Source of the DNA: Candidatus Thalassarchaeum betae
Lineage (GTDB): Archaea > Thermoplasmatota > Poseidoniia > Poseidoniales > Thalassarchaeaceae
DNA: 52,548 nt
Assembly: GCA_022447095.1 (NCBI GenBank)
Contig: JAKUUP010000007.1
Location: 1-52,548, forward strand
Direction: 5' to 3'
Shown: piece by piece, positions 1,326-19,933 of the stretch
Position numbering within the stretch: the first letter of the stretch is position 1
How the letters are laid out: every line of letters begins with the position of its first letter
Notes under the pieces: generated by a model
What the model was told of the DNA's origin: nothing
The model's database searches: none
The model's input: the letters and a program-made list of their open reading frames with translations, nothing else
Made by a program: the position numbers and the translations under genes

Positions 1326-2555
1326 ATGATGAGTAATGGCGAGCGGGGTCGTGCGGCGGCAGGACTCGTCGTGGCGAAGGGTAGTTTCGCAGCGATGGGG
1401 GGTGCTGAGCGCGACTTGATGCGCAACCTGCCCGCGCTCGCTCAGAGATTCGCAGTGAGCGTCGCCACGCTCCATCCGGTGTCTGAACTGGAGGCTCTTT
1501 GCTCGGAGCTCGAAATTAGTCTCATCAGTCCCGAGAAACCGTGGGAACCACCAACCGGCGCACTCTCCACCGTTCTCGACGCGGGTATGGACAGCGCCTC
1601 ACGAGCCTGGACGGGATGCTCTGGTTTGCACGATGCCATCTCCGACTCTGACGTCGTCCACCTCGTCAGCGGCGACGGCAGCCTCGCTCTGCTGGATCAC
1701 GTGCCCGAGTCGGTGGCTGTACACCTCCACCTGCTCGAACCGCATCGGGGGCTGCACGAGGACGTGCTGCACCGCAAGATCGACGGCTCGCCGAAGCGGA
1801 ACCTCGGTCTGACCAGTGCGCTGCTGTCGAGGGCGAGGCGCCGTGACATCGAGTTCATTCGTGGACTCACCGACAGGCCGCGCTCTGCGATCAGCGGAAA
1901 CTCGAGTTACACTGCAGGACGCATCGGCGAAGTCTACGGCGTCGAGGCCGGCGTCCTTCTCCCCAGTGTAGTCGCTGACGAGTTCCCCTCCGAGGCTGGC
2001 TCGGACGAGCCAGTTGCAGTGGGCGATATGCCAAGGCCGTACGCCGTCAGCGTGGGCCGGGCCAGTTGGGTCAAGGGGACTTGGGAGGCAGTCTCGATGT
2101 TGGCTGACAGCGGAGTTTCTCTGGCTCACATCGGAGGCGGGGAGGCTGACGACATAGCCCGCCTTGCAGATCACGCCGGTTCTTGCGGGGTCGAGCTGTG
2201 GGTCGCCCCACGCCTCAGCTCTCCCGAGTTGGCTTCACTGATGCGCAACGCGAGGGCTGTTGTGAGCATGGCTCACGGCGAGCCTTTCGGACTCACGCCG
2301 GTCGAAGCTTTCTCCGTCGGTACGCCAGCCCTCTTCGTCGACGAGGGCGGCTTCCGCGACACCGTGATAGACGGCGCGAACGGCCGCCTCCTGAAGCGAG
2401 GCGACCAAGCGGCCTGGCACTCCGCTCTCGAACAGGCCGCGGATGCACAGACCCGTGCCCGCTGGGCCGAGGCGGGCCGCTCCAGGATAGCGGAACTTGA
2501 TCTCAGCCCAGAAACCCATTGCAGCCGCCTAGCCGCGATTCTGGACTCTCTTTGA
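1326..2555 (+). CDS. glycosyltransferase family 4 (GT-B fold)
   Basis: Protein of 409 residues starting at ATG 1326 or the adjacent ATG 1329. N-terminal GGAERDLMRNLPALAQRF resembles the acceptor-binding start of GT4 enzymes. The C-terminal half has PYAVSVGRASWVKGTWEAVS and the donor-site signature AHGEPFGLTPVEAFSVGTP followed by GGFRDTVIDGANGRLL. It is only distantly similar to the divergent neighbouring glycosyltransferase, so this is not a recent duplication. Role inferred: surface glycan or glycolipid assembly; substrate unknown. Confidence 0.85.
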   Translation: MMSNGERGRAAAGLVVAKGSFAAMGGAERDLMRNLPALAQRFAVSVATLHPVSELEALCSELEISLISPEKPWEPPTGALSTVLDAGMDSASRAWTGCSGLHDAISDSDVVHLVSGDGSLALLDHVPESVAVHLHLLEPHRGLHEDVLHRKIDGSPKRNLGLTSALLSRARRRDIEFIRGLTDRPRSAISGNSSYTAGRIGEVYGVEAGVLLPSVVADEFPSEAGSDEPVAVGDMPRPYAVSVGRASWVKGTWEAVSMLADSGVSLAHIGGGEADDIARLADHAGSCGVELWVAPRLSSPELASLMRNARAVVSMAHGEPFGLTPVEAFSVGTPALFVDEGGFRDTVIDGANGRLLKRGDQAAWHSALEQAADAQTRARWAEAGRSRIAELDLSPETHCSRLAAILDSL

Positions 2556-2559
2556 GTAT

Positions 2560-2576
2560 ATGATTCTACGAATCAT
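2560..2576. promoter_or_regulatory. perfect 7-3-7 inverted repeat overlapping a TATA-like box
   Basis: ATGATTC, then TAC, then its exact reverse complement GAATCAT. It begins 4 bases after the glycosyltransferase stop and overlaps a TATA-like GTATATG (2556-2562) placed 32-38 bases before the ATG at 2594. The position suits an operator that would compete with TBP or polymerase, or a short hairpin at the end of the upstream transcript. Function is inferred from geometry only. Confidence 0.45.
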
Positions 2577-2593
2577 TTAGTGAAATCATTGAA

Positions 2594-3403
2594 ATGGGGC
2601 ACAATAGACGGTTTTTCATGGACGACAGTCGCAAAGATACGACCGGAGACCGCTCAACCCAGATTGCCATGACCATGGGACTGTTGCTTTTCGCATCAGT
2701 CATACTCGGCTCGGGAGCCCTCGGAGACGACCGTGACTCCAACGCCGCTGGCGAGGACAGAGTCGATGATTCAGACGACCGAGTCGGTGACGATGTAAGA
2801 CTCACCCCAGAGATGTGCAGGGAGAGAGGTCTCGGCTGGGACGAGGGCACGCAAGAGTGCCTCTCGATGGAAAATGGCTGGGATGGCGAGTTCGCTCACG
2901 AGGACATGGATGATCGCGACAGGAGAGGGATGGATGAGCGACGCGGAGACGACGATCGCGACAGGGGTTCGGAGAATCAGATGCGCGTGCCCCCGGAGGT
3001 CCTCCGTGAGATGGCTGGTATGTGGTGCCATAATCACGTCTTCAACACCTTCTGGGAGAACACTCACGCTGTCGAGTTGGATGACGGTTCGGGCTTTGAG
3101 ATAATCACCTACGACGATGATGGTCATGAGGAGAGTACGGTAATCAGCCACGATGCGATGTGGCAGATTACATCCGGGCTCGAGCCACTCGTCGGGTCCT
3201 GCGCTGCCATGATGATGGAACTGATGGGAGTAGGAATGCAACCCCATGACCACGAAGACGACTGGGACGAGATGCGCTCGTTGGAGGAATACTGCGAGGA
3301 GCATCCCGATGACGAGGACTGCCATTGGGAAGACGACGAGGATGATTCAGACACGGACTGGAACGAGTCGGACGAGTCCGGTGAGGACGAGTCTCAGGAC
3401 TAA
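2594..3403 (+). CDS. acidic exported or membrane-anchored protein, unknown family
   Basis: Protein of 269 residues not recognised as a known family. After a short basic start comes one hydrophobic segment (about residues 24-42, AMTMGLLLFASVILGSGALG), which could be a signal peptide or anchor. The rest is very rich in Asp and Glu: a DDRD/RRGDDD-rich stretch (40-130), a middle region with MWCHNHVFNTFWENTHAVE that may be folded, and a C-terminal tail of almost pure D/E/S. Six cysteines occur outside the leader, including an ECLSM near residue 91 and DEDCHWEDDED near the end. The composition suggests an extracellular, cation-binding protein. An alternative start is ATG 2618. The stop overlaps the stop of the convergent gene. 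Confidence 0.7.
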   Translation: MGHNRRFFMDDSRKDTTGDRSTQIAMTMGLLLFASVILGSGALGDDRDSNAAGEDRVDDSDDRVGDDVRLTPEMCRERGLGWDEGTQECLSMENGWDGEFAHEDMDDRDRRGMDERRGDDDRDRGSENQMRVPPEVLREMAGMWCHNHVFNTFWENTHAVELDDGSGFEIITYDDDGHEESTVISHDAMWQITSGLEPLVGSCAAMMMELMGVGMQPHDHEDDWDEMRSLEEYCEEHPDDEDCHWEDDEDDSDTDWNESDESGEDESQD

Positions 3404-3999
3404 TCGAGTGAGATACGCTCGGTCTTGGGGCCGAGCCTGAACACCACGACCAGAGCGGCTATGCCGATGAGCATGAGCACGGCTGATATCATCGGGTTCA
3501 GAACTGTCGCAGAGTCTGAAGGCAACCATATCGGGAGGAGGTCGAACAGCGATTCGTTGCGGACCAGTTTGCCACCTATCGATGATGCCATCGTGGTCAT
3601 CAGGAAAGCCATTACTGCCGTTACTCCTTGGAGTCCGCTGAGCGGGCGGACCTGCCAGACATCCGGGCCAAATCGCACCCTGCCGATGACGTAAGAGGCC
3701 CAGAATCCCAGTGCTAGGCCGCTGTAGACGAACTTGTTGTACAGTAGTGCGTTAGTCACCGTGTTGTCTGCGGCGAAAGAGCCGCTGAGGATAGCGATTG
3801 GCAGGAAAGCCAGGCCGAGCGAGGCCCCGACCAAGGCTGCCTTGTCCATCGTCTCCATCATGTGCTTGGTAGCGAGCCTGCCTGCCATCCTCGGGAACAG
3901 GCTGGCCACGGTGCAGCCTACGGCGCACAGAGTAGCCAGCACTAGAGTGCCCACGACTACCTCAGCCATAGCCGCATGGAAGGTCGCTGCGCCGATCAT
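3400..3999 (-). CDS. multi-pass membrane protein, unknown function
   Basis: Protein of 199 residues (one more if GTG 4002 is used). About five hydrophobic helices are visible: residues 10-33, 52-75, 86-108, 125-147 and 168-190, with a short basic C-terminus. No catalytic motif is recognised. It is the last gene of a leftward three-gene unit: its ATG overlaps the upstream stop as TGATG, which implies translational coupling to the secreted CxxxCH protein. It may form a membrane partner for the two exported proteins. Its stop codon overlaps that of the convergent acidic-protein gene. Confidence 0.7.
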   Translation of the reverse strand: MIGAATFHAAMAEVVVGTLVLATLCAVGCTVASLFPRMAGRLATKHMMETMDKAALVGASLGLAFLPIAILSGSFAADNTVTNALLYNKFVYSGLALGFWASYVIGRVRFGPDVWQVRPLSGLQGVTAVMAFLMTTMASSIGGKLVRNESLFDLLPIWLPSDSATVLNPMISAVLMLIGIAALVVVFRLGPKTERISLD

Positions 4000-5120
4000 C
4001 ACTCATCGCCCCCAGGTGGATTGTTTGGGTCCGAAATCCACTCCTCCTCAACAGGATCCCATAGCCATCCGGGGTTCTCCTCTGACGGCACGAGCCTTGC
4101 CCAGTAGTCGTCTGCCGGCTGCGGCTCAAGTCCGGGCGGCGAGGGTGGGGCATCAGTCGCCTCGACCTCCTCTGTGTGGTCTATCTCTGGCCTTCCCTCC
4201 CACGGCGAGAACCGAGTCTGCAATGAAACTAGGAAGGAGAGTACGAGGAAGGCGAAGGCGAAGGACTGCAGGCGGGCGTCCCATATCCCCCCGTCGAAGG
4301 GCGGTGGGTCGGTCCCGACGGTCAGCCACGGCTGCACTATCGAGAACTCGCCGTTCGAAGTCGTCACCTGGTACTGCATCCTTGTATCGCCGATGGTCGC
4401 AGGCAGCATGGCCTCCCAGACATCACCTGCTCCGGTGACCTCGGCGTCATGAGGCAACCACTCCCCCTCGAGCATCCACTGCACCGTGACCGAGGTCGCG
4501 TTCCTGGTTCGAATCTCAGTGGGCGAGTCGACGCCTGTCACTCTCATCTCGGGGGTCCAGTCAAAGGCGAATCCGGGCAGATTATCTGGTACCGGCTGGA
4601 CATCCACCGTGTAACCCCTGGTGAGTGCGGAATAAGCCCAGTTGTTGCTGTTCGGGTTCACCCCGTGGTGGATCTCGACGAACAGGTTCTGCAGTCCGGT
4701 CTGCTCTGGTGCCAGCATCACCCAAGTCAGAGTCACGGAGCCGCTCGGCGGCACGATGACCTCGACGTAGTTGTGAGAGCCGCCGTTGGGGTCCTGCAGT
4801 ATGGCCCACCCGTAGTCCTCAGGGTGGTCGCCATTGCCGTTAGAAGAGCCAAGAAGGAAAACGCCAAGCAGCCTGTTTCCGGACAAGCTCATCCCGCTCG
4901 CGGTGACGTGCACGGCGGTCGCGGTACCCGAGAAAACCAATGCATCCACAGAGATAGACACAGTCCCGTCGGAGGGAGCGTTCAGAGCCGGATCACCGTG
5001 GCACGAGCCGCCGCAGGTGAAGTCCCGGTCCGCATCGCCCTCACCGCCGGGGTTGGCCACGCTGGCGCTGGTTGCTAGCAGTATCGCGATGATTGCGAGA
5101 ACGGCCGCGCGAGAGTGCAT
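3999..5120 (-). CDS. secreted, membrane-anchored protein with CxxxCH N-terminal domain
   Basis: Protein of 373 residues. A signal peptide (residues 1-22, AVLAIIAILLATSASVA) is followed by DFTCGGSCHGDP, a CxxxCH element where choice-of-anchor V/cytochrome-like domains carry CxxCH. Residues about 40-165 form a beta-rich domain, about 175-265 an Ig-like domain, and about 283-305 a transmembrane helix. The cytoplasmic tail is Pro/Glu-rich and ends with NPGWLWDPVEEEWISDP, a WW-like tryptophan motif. The start ATG at 5118-5120 overlaps the upstream stop as TAATG, favouring this start over a longer reading frame. The domain family assignment is from memory of the motif and therefore moderate. Confidence 0.75.
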   Translation of the reverse strand: MHSRAAVLAIIAILLATSASVANPGGEGDADRDFTCGGSCHGDPALNAPSDGTVSISVDALVFSGTATAVHVTASGMSLSGNRLLGVFLLGSSNGNGDHPEDYGWAILQDPNGGSHNYVEVIVPPSGSVTLTWVMLAPEQTGLQNLFVEIHHGVNPNSNNWAYSALTRGYTVDVQPVPDNLPGFAFDWTPEMRVTGVDSPTEIRTRNATSVTVQWMLEGEWLPHDAEVTGAGDVWEAMLPATIGDTRMQYQVTTSNGEFSIVQPWLTVGTDPPPFDGGIWDARLQSFAFAFLVLSFLVSLQTRFSPWEGRPEIDHTEEVEATDAPPSPPGLEPQPADDYWARLVPSEENPGWLWDPVEEEWISDPNNPPGGDE

Positions 5121-7786
5121 TATGCACCCCTCCTGCGACTCTCGAACAGAGTGATTCCAATGGCCGCTGCGCCTAGCAGCAGGAGCAGTGCGGCTACCGG
5201 GATGACAAGTAGTTTGGGCGATCCAGTTGGGTCGGTGTCGATTGAACTCGCCGCGGCGGTGGCATTGACGCTGACCATGTTCTCCCCATCGGCTATCCAC
5301 ACCACTTCGTGCCCGTCAATCACGGTGGTCACGGCATAGTACAGCATCGAAGCGACCGGGGCCGTCTCGCTCCAAGTTGTGTCGCTGGTCACTCCTACAG
5401 GCTCCATATCGAGCGGGACCGGTTCGCCCCACGCAGGGGTTGCGTCCATCGAGGTCAACCCGACCACAGTGGTGATAGGGCTGGTCGATCGATAGACACT
5501 GTACTCGGAGGAGGAGCCGGTCCAAGAGAGGTGGACCGTGGAGCCGTCGAGGCTGGCGGACAGCGAGGAGACGGTGATGACAGGTCCGAATATGACCTCG
5601 TTCTCTATGGTGTCCGAACCACCCATGTCATCGATAACAGTGAGTGAGACAGTGTGCACGCCTGCCGCTAGCAGGACATCTACCGACTGCCCGGCGAATC
5701 CGACTCCATCAATGGTCCAGAACCAGGTTACGATCTCGCCATCGGGATCGGATGCGCCCGAAGCGTCGAAACTCGCCATCGCACCCGGTATCGGAGGCTG
5801 TGGTGATGTCGACCAGAATGCTACAGGAGGCAGGTTGGGGATAGTGACGTTCTGCGAAGCAGAGCTGGAAAGCCCCCAAGGGTCGTTGGCGGACACCGTC
5901 ACGGTCCACAGTTGGCCGGGCTCGATTCTTGAGGCCGGAACCAGTTGTGATCCATCAAGATCTGGTACGTGGAACCCGTTCCTCGACCACCGGTAGTCGA
6001 ACAGCACTATCTCCTCGTCTGGGTCCTCGGACGATGCCTCGACGATGAGGTCGTGCAGTGAATCGGGCACACCGATGCTTCCGGAGAAATCGCCACCGAG
6101 GTTTACCTCAGGCGTGTCCGGAGCGGCGTTTTGTATCACGCGCGCGTTGGTCTTCATCGAGGTCCCAAGGTCCTCTCCGTCACCTGGTATGACTTGGACC
6201 GACCAATGCTGGTCTCTTATTGTCTCACCATGCCAGATAGTGCCCAAGTTGTCGTATTCACTCTTCCATTCCCCATCTACCCACCAACGGATCTGAGAAT
6301 TTTGTGATTCATCGCCATCAATGTCGCTCTGCTCCCATTCCACTGTCAGATTCATGGTGGTAATCAGGTCACCCTCCGGAAGCATCGAGATGGACGTTAC
6401 AACAGGTGGGGTGTTCTGAATGGTGACGGCACTGCTAGTAACCCAGTCAGACCACATCAGCCCGTCCGAGACCTTGGCCTCGGCTACCCATGTCTGCCCC
6501 TTGGTTGTGGCCTCCGGAGGCACCCAGTTCAAGTCGTTGTAGGCGGAAATTTGAACGAAATTACCATCACCGTCGTTGTCCATCATCCACCTAATCTCGG
6601 TCGATTCTTTCTCATCGCCGTCCGGGTCGCTGTAACCTACAATCACCTGAAGAGCATCAGTGGTAACAACATTGCCAGAAGGGGAAATGAATGCCGTAGC
6701 GGAAGGCTGGGTGTTGGATGAACCGATGACAATAACTCCGGTCCAAACAGTTTCGCCGTAGTCAGTTCCGTCATGCGGCTTCACTGAGGCCTGCCACTCG
6801 TCTCCGGACCTTGTCCAAAGGCTGGATACCGTGCTTGAGTCGTCCAACTCTGGAATCCTAGCACCATCCAGATACCATTGGGTGACCGTGTCCTGCTGAG
6901 TGTTGCCATCGAGGTCGAAATAATCGTAGTCCAGCACGAGGTCGTCCGTATCGATTGGATCGGAGGGGGAAACCTCCAGCTCCCTCGCTATCGGCGGGGT
7001 GTTGCCGATTGACACCGGGTTGAGTATCACGGCGTCGCCGTCTTCAGTGCCGTCGGAAGGGGTGACCTCGACCTGCCACTGCTGCCCCCTTCCCAGCCAG
7101 CTGTTCGGGACATCGTGCATGTCGTTAATCGTGGCCACCTGCAGACCGTCGCGCCACCACTTGATCTGAGTGCCCTGCTCCGAGTCGCCGTCGGCGTCGT
7201 GGAAGTCGTACGACACGCCCAGGCCGGTCGCCTTGGTCGGGCTCGTAGGGACGTATGTGACGTTGGATATGACTGGAGCAGTGTTCTCCGCTGAGCCGGC
7301 CTCCCCCAGAGTCCACGCCCCAGTGCCCCATGTGTCACCCGTGTTCTGGCCATTGCCATTGGCGTAAAGCACGGCGACGGTGAAATCAACGTCGCCGGTG
7401 CCTGTAGTTGGGGCGACCCAGTCTGCGGTCCACGAGCGGGCGGCATCGTTGCTGTGGGTCAGCTCGCCGTTCGCAATCTGGACGTGGGCACCAAGGTTCG
7501 TCCAACTCCCCGCGCTCACGTCGAGGTTGAATCCTCCATCGCCGGAGACATGGGGGCCGCCGTCCCATTGCAGGGAGTAGGTTGCACCTGGGGTGTAGCC
7601 ACCCGCGCCGAAGGGAAGTCCGTTCATGGACGGAGAAAGACCCCCCGAATTCGAATGGCAAGTGCAGCCGCTGACCGACTTACCCGTCATGCCTGTGGAC
7701 TGAGAGTAGGCCGAATGCGAGAGCGAGACCAGAAACAACAGCACCAGCACCACTGCTACACGCCGGCGTGGGGCCATGCCCGGCAC
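5120..7786 (-). CDS. large secreted surface protein: CxCH domain, tandem Ig-like repeats, PKD, C-terminal anchor
   Basis: Protein of 888 residues. A signal peptide (about 1-28, VAVVLVLLFLVSLSHSA) precedes a choice-of-anchor V-like domain (35-165) beginning VSGCTCHSNSGG, where the heme-type motif is shortened to CxCH. Then come about five tandem Ig/cadherin-like domains of roughly 95 residues, each with a DxDGD-type calcium-binding element (DADGDSEQ, DLDGNTQQ, DPDGDEKE, DIDGDESQ) and a WxVxVxPxDG-type strand. A PKD domain (ASDPDGEIVTWFW, near 680) and an FN3-like domain follow. A C-terminal helix LLVIPVAALLLLLGAAAIGI with a basic tail anchors it. First gene of the coupled leftward unit. An alternative start is ATG 7777. 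Confidence 0.85.
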   Translation of the reverse strand: MPGMAPRRRVAVVLVLLFLVSLSHSAYSQSTGMTGKSVSGCTCHSNSGGLSPSMNGLPFGAGGYTPGATYSLQWDGGPHVSGDGGFNLDVSAGSWTNLGAHVQIANGELTHSNDAARSWTADWVAPTTGTGDVDFTVAVLYANGNGQNTGDTWGTGAWTLGEAGSAENTAPVISNVTYVPTSPTKATGLGVSYDFHDADGDSEQGTQIKWWRDGLQVATINDMHDVPNSWLGRGQQWQVEVTPSDGTEDGDAVILNPVSIGNTPPIARELEVSPSDPIDTDDLVLDYDYFDLDGNTQQDTVTQWYLDGARIPELDDSSTVSSLWTRSGDEWQASVKPHDGTDYGETVWTGVIVIGSSNTQPSATAFISPSGNVVTTDALQVIVGYSDPDGDEKESTEIRWMMDNDGDGNFVQISAYNDLNWVPPEATTKGQTWVAEAKVSDGLMWSDWVTSSAVTIQNTPPVVTSISMLPEGDLITTMNLTVEWEQSDIDGDESQNSQIRWWVDGEWKSEYDNLGTIWHGETIRDQHWSVQVIPGDGEDLGTSMKTNARVIQNAAPDTPEVNLGGDFSGSIGVPDSLHDLIVEASSEDPDEEIVLFDYRWSRNGFHVPDLDGSQLVPASRIEPGQLWTVTVSANDPWGLSSSASQNVTIPNLPPVAFWSTSPQPPIPGAMASFDASGASDPDGEIVTWFWTIDGVGFAGQSVDVLLAAGVHTVSLTVIDDMGGSDTIENEVIFGPVITVSSLSASLDGSTVHLSWTGSSSEYSVYRSTSPITTVVGLTSMDATPAWGEPVPLDMEPVGVTSDTTWSETAPVASMLYYAVTTVIDGHEVVWIADGENMVSVNATAAASSIDTDPTGSPKLLVIPVAALLLLLGAAAIGITLFESRRRGA

Positions 7787-16332: not shown

Positions 16333-18699
16333 TCACTCTGCTTCTTGTGAAACGCGGTCGCTTGAGGCTAGGGCCAGAACTCCCCCCAACATCACCAGAG
16401 TCCATCCGGCCCAGACCAAGTGGCTTCCCTTCAGGCTGTGCACGGTGACCCTGATGGTCTCGACATCATCGGTTCCGCCCATTATCATGGAACTCAGAAG
16501 GTCGTTGGACTGGAAGATGTCTAGGATCACGATGGTGTCGCCTGTCGGACCGGTTATCCTGTCGACCTCGGAACGCGAGTTGATTGCTCCGCTGGGAGAG
16601 TCGAACCGCAGCATCCCTGGAGTCAGGGTGTCTATGAGTTCGCCGTCCAGCCTCACTTCGATTACCACTCCCACAAAGCCGTCGCCGACGGCGAAGTCGT
16701 AGGCATCGTCATCCGCGGATATCAGTTCAGTGTCGACGAACATCAATTCGTAGCCGTCGTGCTCAACCGGCTGGTCCCTCTCAAGAGTGACAAGGTGTGA
16801 GGGGTCCGAGCGGTCGACCAGCGTGGTGGTGAGGACGTGCCCGATGAGCAGGAGCAGGATCCCGAGGTGGGCGAGGTGCGAGCCAAGCAGCCTCGCGCGC
16901 GCGGCGTTGCTTCTGACACGAACTCCTCCCTCTCTGAGTTTGGGCATCACTTTGGTGGCGGTACGCCACGCCTGCTGGACCGTCGGTGGGAGGGCGAAGA
17001 CAAGCCAAGTCAGTAGAAACAGCGCTATTGCGCCTCTGGTGATACCGCTGGTGACGATCAGATTGGGATCACCCGGGAGGGAGAACTGGTCGGATATGTA
17101 AGCGAGGGCGATTGAGGCGAACAGGGCCGCTGCTACGAGAGCGTTGCCTCGGCTTGCATCGATTGATTGGCCCCATGCATAGAGTGTGAGTGCGATTGCC
17201 AGCAAGCCGATGAGGGGGGCCCCGTAGAACTCGTGCGCCTCAAGACTGGAGCCGTCTATCTCCACAGTCAGCAGTAACCATGTGAGCAGTAGAAAGGCCG
17301 CGCCGCCGTACCAAGGAACGGTACGCGCAGCGCGCGTGCGTGCTGAGGTGTCCTCAAGCGGTAGGAGCACGTCCACCATCTCATTCTCATCTTCGGGAGA
17401 GAGTAACCACGGAGTGAGGAACGGCACCATCCCCGTCACCGCCTGAGTGATGTCAGCGAGCCAGAACCAGGCGGAGTAGAGCATCAGCAGCACACCGAGA
17501 GCGATCCAATGCAGAGGCGGTTTCTCCCCGTCACCGTGCACCACCAGCAGAATTAACGCGAGGCCGAGAGCGAATACCGCGCTCGAGCCGATCCAGAATC
17601 CGACGGTGATGTACGCCAACACGAGGCCGGCCGCCAACTTCGGTTTGGACTCAAGCATCGAGGTGCGACCAGTGGCGGCTAGTGCCAGCCACTGCTGTCG
17701 GCGTAGATGAGCGTAGGCGTAGTAGCCCAGTACAATAATTGCAACGAGGTAGGAAGTCACCTCGATTCCAACGGGAGTCAACTCGGCTATGTCGAGGACC
17801 CGTAGGTACGGGTCGTCGGCCAGCGTGCCCTCGCCGTCGGCTACGAAGGCGTGGACCGATGCCCAGACGCCGTTCGCACGCGTCACGAGAGTCGCATGGA
17901 AGGCCAGTGCACCTGCCAGCAGCCCGATTGCGGGTGAAACGGAGACTGCGCTAGAGGAATCTGGCTTCGCGCGCACGTGCACGATAAGAAGCAGTGCGAG
18001 CCAAGGCAGCAGCGAACCGGTCTCAACCGGATCCCAGGCCCAGTAACCTCCCCAGTCCAGTACCGTGTAGGCCCACAGGCCGCCGAGCCCTATGCCGATG
18101 CTGCCGAGAACGAAGCCGGCGCGCGCCCAGTGCAGTTGAGCGGCATGGATGGCATCGGCTGAGTCTCGCCTGAGCACGCCTGCGAGAGCCACACTAGCAG
18201 TTGCCAGACACAACGCGTAGTAGGAGAAGACCACTGGTGGGTGAATGACCATCAGGTCGGTCTGCAGCAGCGGGTGCAGTTCGCCCCGCCCCCCTGTCGC
18301 GGCGGCGAACGGTTCTAGCAGCCACGCCAATACGAACAGTGCTAGCACCCATGCGTGCATGATTCTGACTTCAAGAGCCGCGGGGCCACCTTCTCGGGCC
18401 ATGAACCAAGTCACTACGGCGAGTATCGCTGCCCACAGCAGCAGCGGACCTGCCCTGCCGCCCCACACAGCGGAAATTCGGTAGAACAGCGGTAGGCCGT
18501 CACCGCCGAAGCGAGCGACGAGGTCCAATGAGGAGGCGTCGAGGACGAAGGCGCCGACCAAAAGGGCGAAAGGAGCGATCTGCGAAGCCATGGTGACGTT
18601 GCGTACTACAGAGTCTCCGGCCTTCTCCGGGCGCGCAATCTGGTGCGCGCTGGTCAGGAGCGCGAGCGCGAGCAGGGCGCGCCCGAGCAAACTGAGCAC
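16333..18699 (-). CDS. ccmF: cytochrome c-type biogenesis protein CcmF (heme lyase)
   Basis: Membrane protein of about 788 residues with more than a dozen helices. It carries the tryptophan-rich heme-handling motif WGGYWAWDPVETGSLLPWLA, the HPPVVFSYYALCLA segment, and a C-terminal soluble domain after SHLAHLGILLLLIGHVLTTT, the usual CcmF order. The protein ligates heme to apocytochrome c on the outer face of the membrane. No other ccm gene is in this window. GTG 18697-18699 is preferred, since an ATG at 18738 would overlap the upstream reductase gene. Its presence implies that exported c-type cytochromes are made. Confidence 0.92.
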   Translation of the reverse strand: MLSLLGRALLALALLTSAHQIARPEKAGDSVVRNVTMASQIAPFALLVGAFVLDASSLDLVARFGGDGLPLFYRISAVWGGRAGPLLLWAAILAVVTWFMAREGGPAALEVRIMHAWVLALFVLAWLLEPFAAATGGRGELHPLLQTDLMVIHPPVVFSYYALCLATASVALAGVLRRDSADAIHAAQLHWARAGFVLGSIGIGLGGLWAYTVLDWGGYWAWDPVETGSLLPWLALLLIVHVRAKPDSSSAVSVSPAIGLLAGALAFHATLVTRANGVWASVHAFVADGEGTLADDPYLRVLDIAELTPVGIEVTSYLVAIIVLGYYAYAHLRRQQWLALAATGRTSMLESKPKLAAGLVLAYITVGFWIGSSAVFALGLALILLVVHGDGEKPPLHWIALGVLLMLYSAWFWLADITQAVTGMVPFLTPWLLSPEDENEMVDVLLPLEDTSARTRAARTVPWYGGAAFLLLTWLLLTVEIDGSSLEAHEFYGAPLIGLLAIALTLYAWGQSIDASRGNALVAAALFASIALAYISDQFSLPGDPNLIVTSGITRGAIALFLLTWLVFALPPTVQQAWRTATKVMPKLREGGVRVRSNAARARLLGSHLAHLGILLLLIGHVLTTTLVDRSDPSHLVTLERDQPVEHDGYELMFVDTELISADDDAYDFAVGDGFVGVVIEVRLDGELIDTLTPGMLRFDSPSGAINSRSEVDRITGPTGDTIVILDIFQSNDLLSSMIMGGTDDVETIRVTVHSLKGSHLVWAGWTLVMLGGVLALASSDRVSQEAE

Positions 18700-18703
18700 G
18701 GGA

Positions 18704-19933
18704 TCACCACCCGTAGTACTTGGCTCTACTATACCCAAATGCCAGCATCGCTGGAACCACCTTCTTGAGATACAAACCGGGACGACGCGAGAGCAGCCTC
18801 AGACCAACCATCGCCTTGCCAGGTACGCCCATGTCGGACATCTCGTCCGGGAAGCACCGGGCCATCACGGACATCTCGTCGTCGGTCAGATCGAACAACG
18901 CGTTCTTGCCGCGCAGTATCTTGTCATATGGTGGAAACTCGTCTTTCCAAAGCTTGGCGTAGATGGCTAGACGCTCTGCGCTGACATCGTCTTCAGCGAT
19001 GGCAGCGGCGGCTGTCTCGGCAGCGTACACCGCCGACTTCAGCGCTAGGTGCGAACCGCCCTCAAAGAGCGGTGAGGTGAAACCAGCGGCGTCACCAACG
19101 AGCATCAACCCGTCGTAGTGGGTGTTCTCGAACGGACCTGAAATCGGGATGGTTCCTCCGAAGGCGGGGTTACCCTTCTCCTTCCAGGGTGGAGGTACCT
19201 GCTCGAGTTCCTTGAAGTGGGTGATTCCGATGAACTCGTCAAGCGCCTTCTTGGTGCGCGGACGATCCTCGGTGACCAGCCCGACGTTAGCGCGGCCGTC
19301 GCACTTGGGAATCATCCACAGATACCCCTTCTCAGCGTACTTCGGCCAGATGTAGAAGTCGAGGTAGCCGTCAGACGGGACCTCTAGCAATTCGTACTGC
19401 ATCCCGGCAACCACCTTGCCCATGGTGTTCAGAGGTGTGTCCTCGTCGATATTGATGACCTTGGAGCACACCGCGGCCACGCCAGATGCGTCGATGACCA
19501 CCTTGGCCTGAATCGGAAACTGTTCTCCCTTGCCATCGCACTTCCAGCCAATGAATCGTCCGTCCTCCTCAACCCTATCCATCGAGGATAGTTTGTGACT
19601 GAGGTGCATGCTTGCTCCGGCCTCGACCGCCTTGTCGGCGATCCATCTCTCGAACAGGTGCTTCTCGAGGACGTATCCCTCCTCAGTCAAGCACTTCTCC
19701 GTGCCATCGGGGAATATCACCCGAATGCCATGGACCCTCTTACTAATGACGTGCTCGGGTAGATCTAGATTGAGATTGTCGCAGGCCAGATCAGAGATGC
19801 ATTCGCCGCAGTGTACCGGTGTCCCTATAGCTGAATGATCCTCGATGAGCATCGTAGAAAGGCCCTGCCGGGCGCACTGCAGGGCAGCGTTGCCGCCCCC
19901 CGGGCCCGCTCCGATGACCAAGACATCGCACAT
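18704..19933 (-). CDS. geranylgeranyl reductase family flavoprotein
   Basis: FAD-dependent reductase of about 409 residues. N-terminal dinucleotide site DVLVIGAGPGGGNAALQCA, then HCGECIS (the C-x-E-x-x motif of archaeal lipid reductases), YVLEKHLFERWIADKAVEAG, AKVVIDASGVAA, GYLWMIPKCDGRANVGL (the YxWxFPK-type signature) and GLMLVGDAAGFTSPLFEGGS. Such enzymes saturate isoprenoid chains of archaeol lipids or of menaquinone. The divergent UbiD/UbiA genes make a quinone side-chain role possible, but archaeal membrane lipid reduction is equally likely. Start ATG 19931-19933 directly precedes the Rossmann strand. It is followed by ccmF with a 4-base gap. Confidence 0.88.
   Translation of the reverse strand: MCDVLVIGAGPGGGNAALQCARQGLSTMLIEDHSAIGTPVHCGECISDLACDNLNLDLPEHVISKRVHGIRVIFPDGTEKCLTEEGYVLEKHLFERWIADKAVEAGASMHLSHKLSSMDRVEEDGRFIGWKCDGKGEQFPIQAKVVIDASGVAAVCSKVINIDEDTPLNTMGKVVAGMQYELLEVPSDGYLDFYIWPKYAEKGYLWMIPKCDGRANVGLVTEDRPRTKKALDEFIGITHFKELEQVPPPWKEKGNPAFGGTIPISGPFENTHYDGLMLVGDAAGFTSPLFEGGSHLALKSAVYAAETAAAAIAEDDVSAERLAIYAKLWKDEFPPYDKILRGKNALFDLTDDEMSVMARCFPDEMSDMGVPGKAMVGLRLLSRRPGLYLKKVVPAMLAFGYSRAKYYGW

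Follow-up and report, generated by a model that had tools for sequence, protein, structure and literature searches.

The minus strand of a stretch of 52,548 nucleotides from Candidatus Thalassarchaeum betae (contig JAKUUP010000007.1 of assembly GCA_022447095.1, positions 1 to 52,548; this whole stretch is called the window) encodes two neighbouring, probably exported proteins, P0001 and P0002, with the cysteine-histidine motifs CxCH and CxxxCH, respectively. The spacing of the canonical heme motif, CxxCH, lies between these two, and the locus raises the question of what such motifs hold: a heme, another metal, or simply a disulfide. Our analyses suggest, on indirect evidence, that P0001 and P0002 may be non-standard heme proteins. 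According to the reading we favour, their genes would form a membrane-anchored redox unit of the cell surface, in which both are covalent-heme proteins matured by an archaeal cytochrome c maturation (Ccm) pathway. We put the probability of this reading at about 0.45, that is, somewhat below even.

Conservation and spacing of the two motifs

Both motifs are in frame where an initial annotation of the same letters had placed them, reading GC-T-CHS in P0001 and CGGSCHG in P0002. P0001 (888 aa; 5120..7786, on the minus strand like all features of the unit given below) consists of a signal peptide, a choice-of-anchor V (CAV) domain of Reeler-like predicted fold with the CxCH motif, a run of Ig/PKD-like repeats and a C-terminal transmembrane (TM) anchor; the signal peptide, repeats and anchor were judged by eye from the translation. 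The CAV domain (residues 19-156; 7319..7732) matches NCBIfam NF041895 with an E-value of 9.8e-24 and 84.1 bits (cut-off 42), which makes P0001 a CAV member. Its motif, C41-T-C43-H44 (7655..7666), stands ~12 residues past the signal peptide. P0002 (373 aa; 3999..5120) has a signal peptide, an Ig-like domain with the motif C36-GGS-C40-H41 (4998..5015), a second Ig-like domain, a TM helix and a cytoplasmic tail; here, too, the motif closely follows the signal peptide. P0002 has no match in Pfam or NCBIfam at E up to 1, and the cut-off of the CAV profile (NF041895) is not reached.

Is the spacing fixed across the lineage, as the initial annotation proposed to check? For P0002 it is: all 30 homologs fetched by protein similarity, that is, not selected for the motif, carry CxxxCH in the form C[GA]G[SA]CH (30/30, own copy included). 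For CAV domains it is mostly CxCH, with rare CxxCH and CxxxxCH. Actually, the CAV copies of this operon show CxCH in 72 of 74 cases and CxxCH in two (L241, L251), and the CAV domains of Thermoplasmatota show CxCH in 32 of 34, the two others, both paralogs in the own genome, having CxxxxCH. In a second, apparently bacterial phylum, reached through the locus L256 described below, CxCH is found in 25 of 30 copies, CxxCH in three and CxxxxCH in two. The Thermoplasmatota and second-phylum samples are the best-scoring loci, 30 per search; the 34 Thermoplasmatota domains include five from the own genome (P0001 among them) and some instances of this operon elsewhere, and the locus L042, which repeats L003, was left out. 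CxCH is the norm in all three samples and the motif of P0001 is typical, contrary to the earlier statement that CAV domains usually show CxxCH. Judging from these sequences, CxCH is normal for CAV, and the spacing can change while the order Cys, Cys-His stays.

We have further inspected single columns in an alignment of CAV domains (A4; 53 of 54 listed sequences plus the window) and one of P0002 (A3; 57 of 60 plus the window). The columns in which Cys or His occupies all rows are C38, C40, H41 and H108 in A4 (54/54), and C36, C40, H41 and H152 in A3 (58/58). H108, in the numbering of the structure model and A4, is H111 of P0001 (7454..7456), and H152 of P0002 lies at 4665..4667; each is the sole other invariant histidine of its family. 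Since the search that gave the A3 loci included the motif in its pattern, C36, C40 and H41 were selected for; H152 is outside this pattern. Rows of A4 were excised around C(1-5)CH matches, but none of the 74 readable operon copies lacks the motif. Further Cys, His or Met columns filled in at least half of the rows are H151 (46/58), H224 (29/58) and the start Met (30) in A3, and none in A4. Loss of the Cys and His residues in orthologues, named in advance as an observation against a functional site, was not seen. This conservation rules out chance as the source of both motifs.

A second His (TH or IH) is also seen by eye in 28 of the 30 second-phylum copies. Two copies, L307 and L309, both have CxxCH and both lack the second His (ELVQ for ELTH). 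This pairing hints that the change to CxxCH and the loss of the His concern one site, although there are two cases only and a further CxxCH copy (L303) keeps the His.

Two invariant Cys and two invariant His per family would also suit a four-ligand site, and each domain might then hold a non-heme metal (copper, iron or zinc), with the link to Ccm genes reflecting an aerobic lifestyle. A Cys spacing of one does occur in metal sites. However, a spacing varying over one, two and four residues within one family would be unusual for such a site, and the Ccm genes would be left without a substrate where no ordinary cytochrome c is found. We regard the metal site as clearly unlikely.

Association with cytochrome c maturation genes

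The gene for a CcmF-type heme lyase (801 aa; 16333..18738, minus strand) lies 8.5 kb from the start of P0001, at the distance given in the initial annotation. The protein matches PF01578 over the cut-off (3.3e-22) and TIGR00353 (CcmF/NrfE) at 1.1e-36, below the whole-protein cut-off, and contains WGGYWAWDPVE, which we take to resemble the WWD motif. A second PF01578 gene is present in the own genome (G000; 1.35 Mb, 97.8 percent complete), at G000:C1.

We have scored 145 Thermoplasmatota genomes for CAV and for PF01578 (CcmF/CcmC-type), in either case at E up to 0.001. CAV is present in 53, PF01578 in 66, and both in 52; that is, PF01578 is found in 52 of the 53 genomes with CAV, while this proportion drops to 14 of 92 for the genomes without it. 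The lone CAV genome without PF01578 (G050) matches CAV only weakly (E 8.2e-5). The genome-level association is inflated by relatedness. At the family level, 13 families have both, one CAV only, nine Ccm only and 13 neither (Fisher p 0.002, assuming 36 families, the highest label seen), a modest association among related lineages that leaves some room for the metal site. In the window's own order, each of the 34 listed genomes has at least one PF01578 match. CcmE is found in 44 of the 145 genomes, including two (G011, G012) of the same genus as the window, and CcmH was not found in G000, in agreement with what the accessible part of PMC9084895 states for archaea generally.

If Ccm genes are kept in these genomes, do they serve ordinary cytochromes? 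The standard cytochrome c profile PF13442 is over its cut-off in none of the 145 genomes, with one match under the cut-off (G103), and PF00034/PF01322 cytochromes are absent from all Thermoplasmatota genomes of PMC9287336, as far as the accessible part of that paper goes. In G000, there are 116 CxxCH-coding DNA sites, compared with 83 for a reversed-pattern control. All 116 were covered, 100 in listed loci or stretches and 16 on the remaining contigs and the window, and the CxxCH-containing open frames of at least 50 aa were assessed by eye, in most cases from their context, eight of them at length and one against family profiles. None looks by eye like an exported cytochrome c, with the limit that a metagenome-assembled genome (MAG) may miss genes. 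The gene-like frames include an iron-sulfur protein (L144), an HNH-like protein (L169), a zinc-ribbon-like protein in the window, and a protein without evident signal peptide (L166). Overall, the argument from CcmF in the initial annotation gains strength from the joint occurrence of CAV and Ccm-type genes and from the failure to find an ordinary cytochrome c.

Two other CxxCH frames of G000 deserve mention. In L138 (G000:C12:44900-48000), frame 1529-3088 looks by eye like a thioredoxin-like part with CGNCH followed by a multi-pass part of CcdA/DsbD appearance; it has no Pfam or NCBIfam match and is a candidate thiol reductase for cytochrome maturation. In L273 (G000:C69:1-20000), a minus-strand frame resembles an RND/MMPL transporter (by eye), whose CQLCH may lie in an external loop.

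The two families differ in how consistently they accompany Ccm-type genes. A similarity search with P0002 in 40 genomes, own included, reached the N-terminal domain in 31, only the tail in four (G002, G010, G018, G032) and nothing in five (G013, G014, G016, G021, G023); several of these nine genomes are incomplete. Four of them (G014, G016, G018, G021; 88-94 percent complete) have 2-8 CAV domains and two PF01578 matches each without an N-terminal P0002 match. This bears on the possibility that only P0002 carries heme and the CxCH of CAV has another role. It would fit with CX3CH being an atypical heme motif in ImcH-type cytochromes (accessible part of PMC6295460), with CxCH turning up only as a search string, and with the poor similarity between the two domains once the signal peptide is removed (see below). 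Since the four genomes keep CAV and PF01578, however, P0002 alone would not explain the kept Ccm genes, and at this position CAV also has variants with CxxCH and CxxxxCH; heme on P0002 only is thus improbable. If Ccm is kept for one of the two families, CAV is the consistent one.

We have also considered P0002 as an order-wide replacement of cytochrome c1/f; most Poseidoniales have cytochrome b and a Rieske protein and no canonical bc1 complex, according to the accessible part of PMC6336850. This idea is unsupported. The N-terminal match is missing in nine of the 40 genomes, some of them incomplete, and its absence from G014, G016, G018 and G021 argues against P0002 as a general cytochrome c1. 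In addition, inspection by eye of the gene clusters that flank the operon in 80 loci gave neither a recognisable respiratory gene nor a conserved neighbour of this kind; cytochrome b and Rieske genes were not searched for.

Predicted folds

For the CAV domain, the structure model has a mean pLDDT of 74.9, with residues 19-34 and 36-38 under 50. Foldseek places the F-spondin Reeler domain first (2zot: E 2.7e-6, probability 1.00, TM 0.52/0.65), and a PDB profile search also has Reeler first, at a weak E of 0.023. The Pfam family Reeler (PF02014) shows weak similarity in 14 of the 54 CAV members (best E 1.4e-4); the window's own CAV domain matches neither it nor any other family in that search. 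CAV is therefore predicted to have a Reeler-type sandwich fold.

As a second look at Foldseek's own candidates, in which rows within 1 Z count as tied, VIA-align gives Reeler 2zot as the top row (Z 11.5, 3.1 A, 113 residues) and cytochrome f 1q90 (1q90_A) as the second (Z 11.3, 2.8 A, 126 residues). The cytochrome f entries, including 1ctm at Z 10.5, span Z 10.1-11.3; the first chain of another kind stands at Z 10.1, and cohesin and integrin sandwiches follow from Z 10.1 down. This likeness is of interest in that cytochrome f, a c-type cytochrome, is itself built on an Ig-like fold. In the models it is a pointer and not a proof, the fold being common. Copper-bound YcnI is also among the structural neighbours of CAV (Z 8.4), a point in favour of the metal site.

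The AF2 model of P0002 (mean pLDDT 81.8) contains two Ig-like domains, with Ig-like neighbours over residues 40-271, and a C-terminal helix (residues 279-304; 4209..4286), which is hydrophobic by eye and taken as the TM anchor.

On the other hand, the closest fold of CAV is the eukaryotic Reeler, and we know of no heme in the F-spondin Reeler or other eukaryotic Reeler domains. The Cys pair could then form a disulfide fastening the N-terminal segment of the sandwich, the proteins being surface adhesins or stalks with no redox cofactor. P0001 is indeed adhesin-like, with PKD-like repeats, one of them a PKD domain (residues 652-729; 5600..5833; Pfam PF18911, PKD_4, 1.2e-7), and a C-terminal anchor. 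Several second-phylum copies continue into an xLxQNxPNPFN-like stretch (by eye), which presumably resembles a type IX secretion tail. However, the adjacent and the distant His are both invariant and neither is required by a disulfide, CxC disulfides are strained and rare, and the co-occurrence with Ccm-type genes would be left unexplained. We therefore consider the disulfide unlikely.

Assessment of the heme model

In the heme model, the CAV domain and the first Ig-like domain of P0002 would each carry one covalent c-type heme, attached via both Cys by the archaeal Ccm pathway (CcmF and partners). The adjacent His would serve as one axial ligand, and the second would probably be H111 in P0001 and H152 in P0002. 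P0003, the product of the third gene of the unit, may be the membrane partner, and the proteins of the unit would serve in electron transport on the outer side of the membrane.

We favour covalent heme because each family has just four invariant Cys/His columns, namely Cys, Cys, His and a second His; because the spacing of the CAV motif takes the values 1, 2 and 4 at the same place, with CxxCH being canonical; because CAV is accompanied by Ccm-type genes in genomes that yielded no ordinary cytochrome c; and because cytochrome f tops the VIA-align list of CAV beside Reeler. CX3CH and CX4CH are used as heme motifs in papers, according to their accessible parts.

Several observations weigh against this model. 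By the motif of c-type cytochromes, the CxxxCH of P0002 is atypical and the CxCH of P0001 is not established as a covalent heme site, CxxCH itself being found in two operon and three second-phylum CAV copies; in the accessible parts of open PubMed Central papers, CXCH together with heme turned up in one paper only, and there as a search string. The fold match of CAV is to a common sandwich with tied VIA-align rows, headed by the Reelers discussed above. Cytochrome f is absent from the best 50 Foldseek rows for the CAV model, its VIA-align alignments extend over the N-terminal part, in which the pLDDT of the motif region is under 50, and the apocytochrome f Pfam family is not among the 20 (A4) and 18 (A3) families listed at E up to 10. 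P0002 is generic Ig-like, and for it cytochrome f (Z 8.0, rmsd 20 A) is no better than unrelated rows.

Homology between the P0001 and P0002 domains is also unsupported: the hhalign probability is 95 percent with signal peptides, 3.8 percent without them, and 0.2 percent without signal peptide and motif, compared with 2.3 percent for a control against the second P0002 domain. In addition, CcmE was not found in G000 (CcmA and CcmB were not searched for). In the second phylum, where CAV is present in 87 of 296 genomes, PF01578 is present in 294 of 296, so co-occurrence there is uninformative. Finally, System I attachment errs at altered Cys spacing, adding a sulfur, and CX15CH requires a dedicated enzyme, as described in the accessible part of a review (PMC3601427). 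Archaeal Ccm lacks CcmH/I, which bind the apocytochrome elsewhere (PMC9084895, accessible part), and our conjecture is that its spacing demands may differ since these are missing.

A broader proposal goes beyond this locus: CxCH CAV domains might be an overlooked, widespread class of c-type heme proteins in archaea and bacteria, on a Reeler/cytochrome f-like sandwich. In Poseidoniales and other Thermoplasmatota, they and the CxxxCH protein would be the real substrates of a Ccm pathway left without any other, and would act as surface electron carriers of these archaea. We hold this broader proposal to be doubtful, though conceivable.

The gene unit and its surroundings

The initial annotation described a unit of two genes. 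We have found three instead, in an overlapping minus-strand run over 3400-7786 that comprises P0001, P0002 and P0003 (200 aa; 3400..4002). P0001 and P0002 share one base, 5120, where the TAA of the former and the ATG of the latter form TAATG, and the stop of P0002 is overlapped by the GTG start of P0003 (GTGA, 3999-4002).

A scan of named genomes with the pattern CGG[SA]CHGD, which is uninformative on motif conservation, kept 80 of 191 relatives. The nearest records with a name belong to Candidatus Thalassarchaeum and to further archaea of Marine Group II. The order CAV, P0002, P0003 on one strand is found in 73 of the 80 Poseidoniales loci; in the other seven, the contig stops short of the CAV domain (5) or of P0003 (2). 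The CAV motif is readable in 74 of the 80 loci, cut by a contig end in one and out of reach in five, whose contigs extend less than 2.2 kb upstream of P0002, so that no CAV domain is visible there. Here, the three-gene operon was seen only in Poseidoniales, and some genera have CAV and Ccm-type genes without it. A plasmid search with a CAV domain gave no match.

The locus L256 (NZVP01000003.1) is a Poseidoniales-type contig with P0002 and P0003 in a MAG titled Flammeovirgaceae, and may be a contaminant contig. The genome to which it is assigned (G171) has no CAV match.

P0003 is by eye a multi-pass membrane protein, with no clear family (none over the cut-off in Pfam or NCBIfam) and no clear PDB relative. 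Four of 16 family members show a weak match to DUF2231 (PF09990; best 0.0058), and the window's own P0003 shows none. The invariant residues include H9, D53, N89-K90, R108, E150 and D154. As there is a single invariant His, a bis-His heme b within P0003 is unlikely.

Short matches to the tail of P0002 (residues 345-367; 4020-4088, minus strand; the NPGWLWDPVEEEWISDP region) occur in other long frames of many of the 40 genomes. These frames are 872-2302 aa long, many ~1450 aa, and perhaps belong mainly to one other family; the tail may be a shared motif. Convergent with the operon, at 2594-3403 on the plus strand of the window, lies the gene of an acidic, probably exported protein of 269 aa, with a CP12-like match of 21.9 bits, just under the cut-off of 22.7. 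Frames resembling it by eye stand at the same place in 19 of the 80 loci.

Significance and comparison with known systems

Poseidoniales are abundant archaea of the surface ocean. If the CxCH and CxxxCH proteins carry heme, the puzzle of Ccm genes without an ordinary cytochrome c would be solved and the definition of the covalent heme motif would widen; searches for CxxCH only would then miss a family present in 53 of 145 Thermoplasmatota and 87 of 296 second-phylum genomes. If they are heme-free, it becomes all the more pressing to ask what these genomes use Ccm for.

The CAV family is already known by name. In open PubMed Central papers, the phrase 'choice-of-anchor V domain' was not found and a search for reeler with archaea gave nothing relevant-looking. 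Nor did the accessible parts of these papers yield a mention of CxCH as a common CAV motif, of the conserved operon or of the link to Ccm.

At the domain level there is no difference from the family NF041895: the CAV domain of P0001 fits it (84.1 vs 42 bits), and CxCH is common in both phyla read. The Reeler domain of F-spondin (PF02014) has the same predicted fold as CAV at ~20 percent identity, and the CxCH motif, with any cofactor, is the difference. Cytochrome f resembles the unit in several respects, namely an Ig-like sandwich as in CAV, an N-terminal motif, and a C-terminal TM helix as in P0002. It has CxxCH, in contrast to CxCH in P0001 or CxxxCH in P0002, and its axial ligand is the N-terminal amine, where the proteins described here have an invariant internal His. 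The Ccm system of Methanosarcina (CcmABCEF, without CcmH/I) is comparable to the genes of G000, with CcmF, a second PF01578 gene and no CcmH found; in the accessible part of PMC9084895 it is described for CXXCH cytochromes, a kind of substrate not seen here. Finally, the ImcH-type cytochromes share the CX3CH spacing with P0002, but according to the accessible part of PMC6295460 they contain several CX2CH motifs besides, whereas P0002 has one motif on a beta-sandwich.

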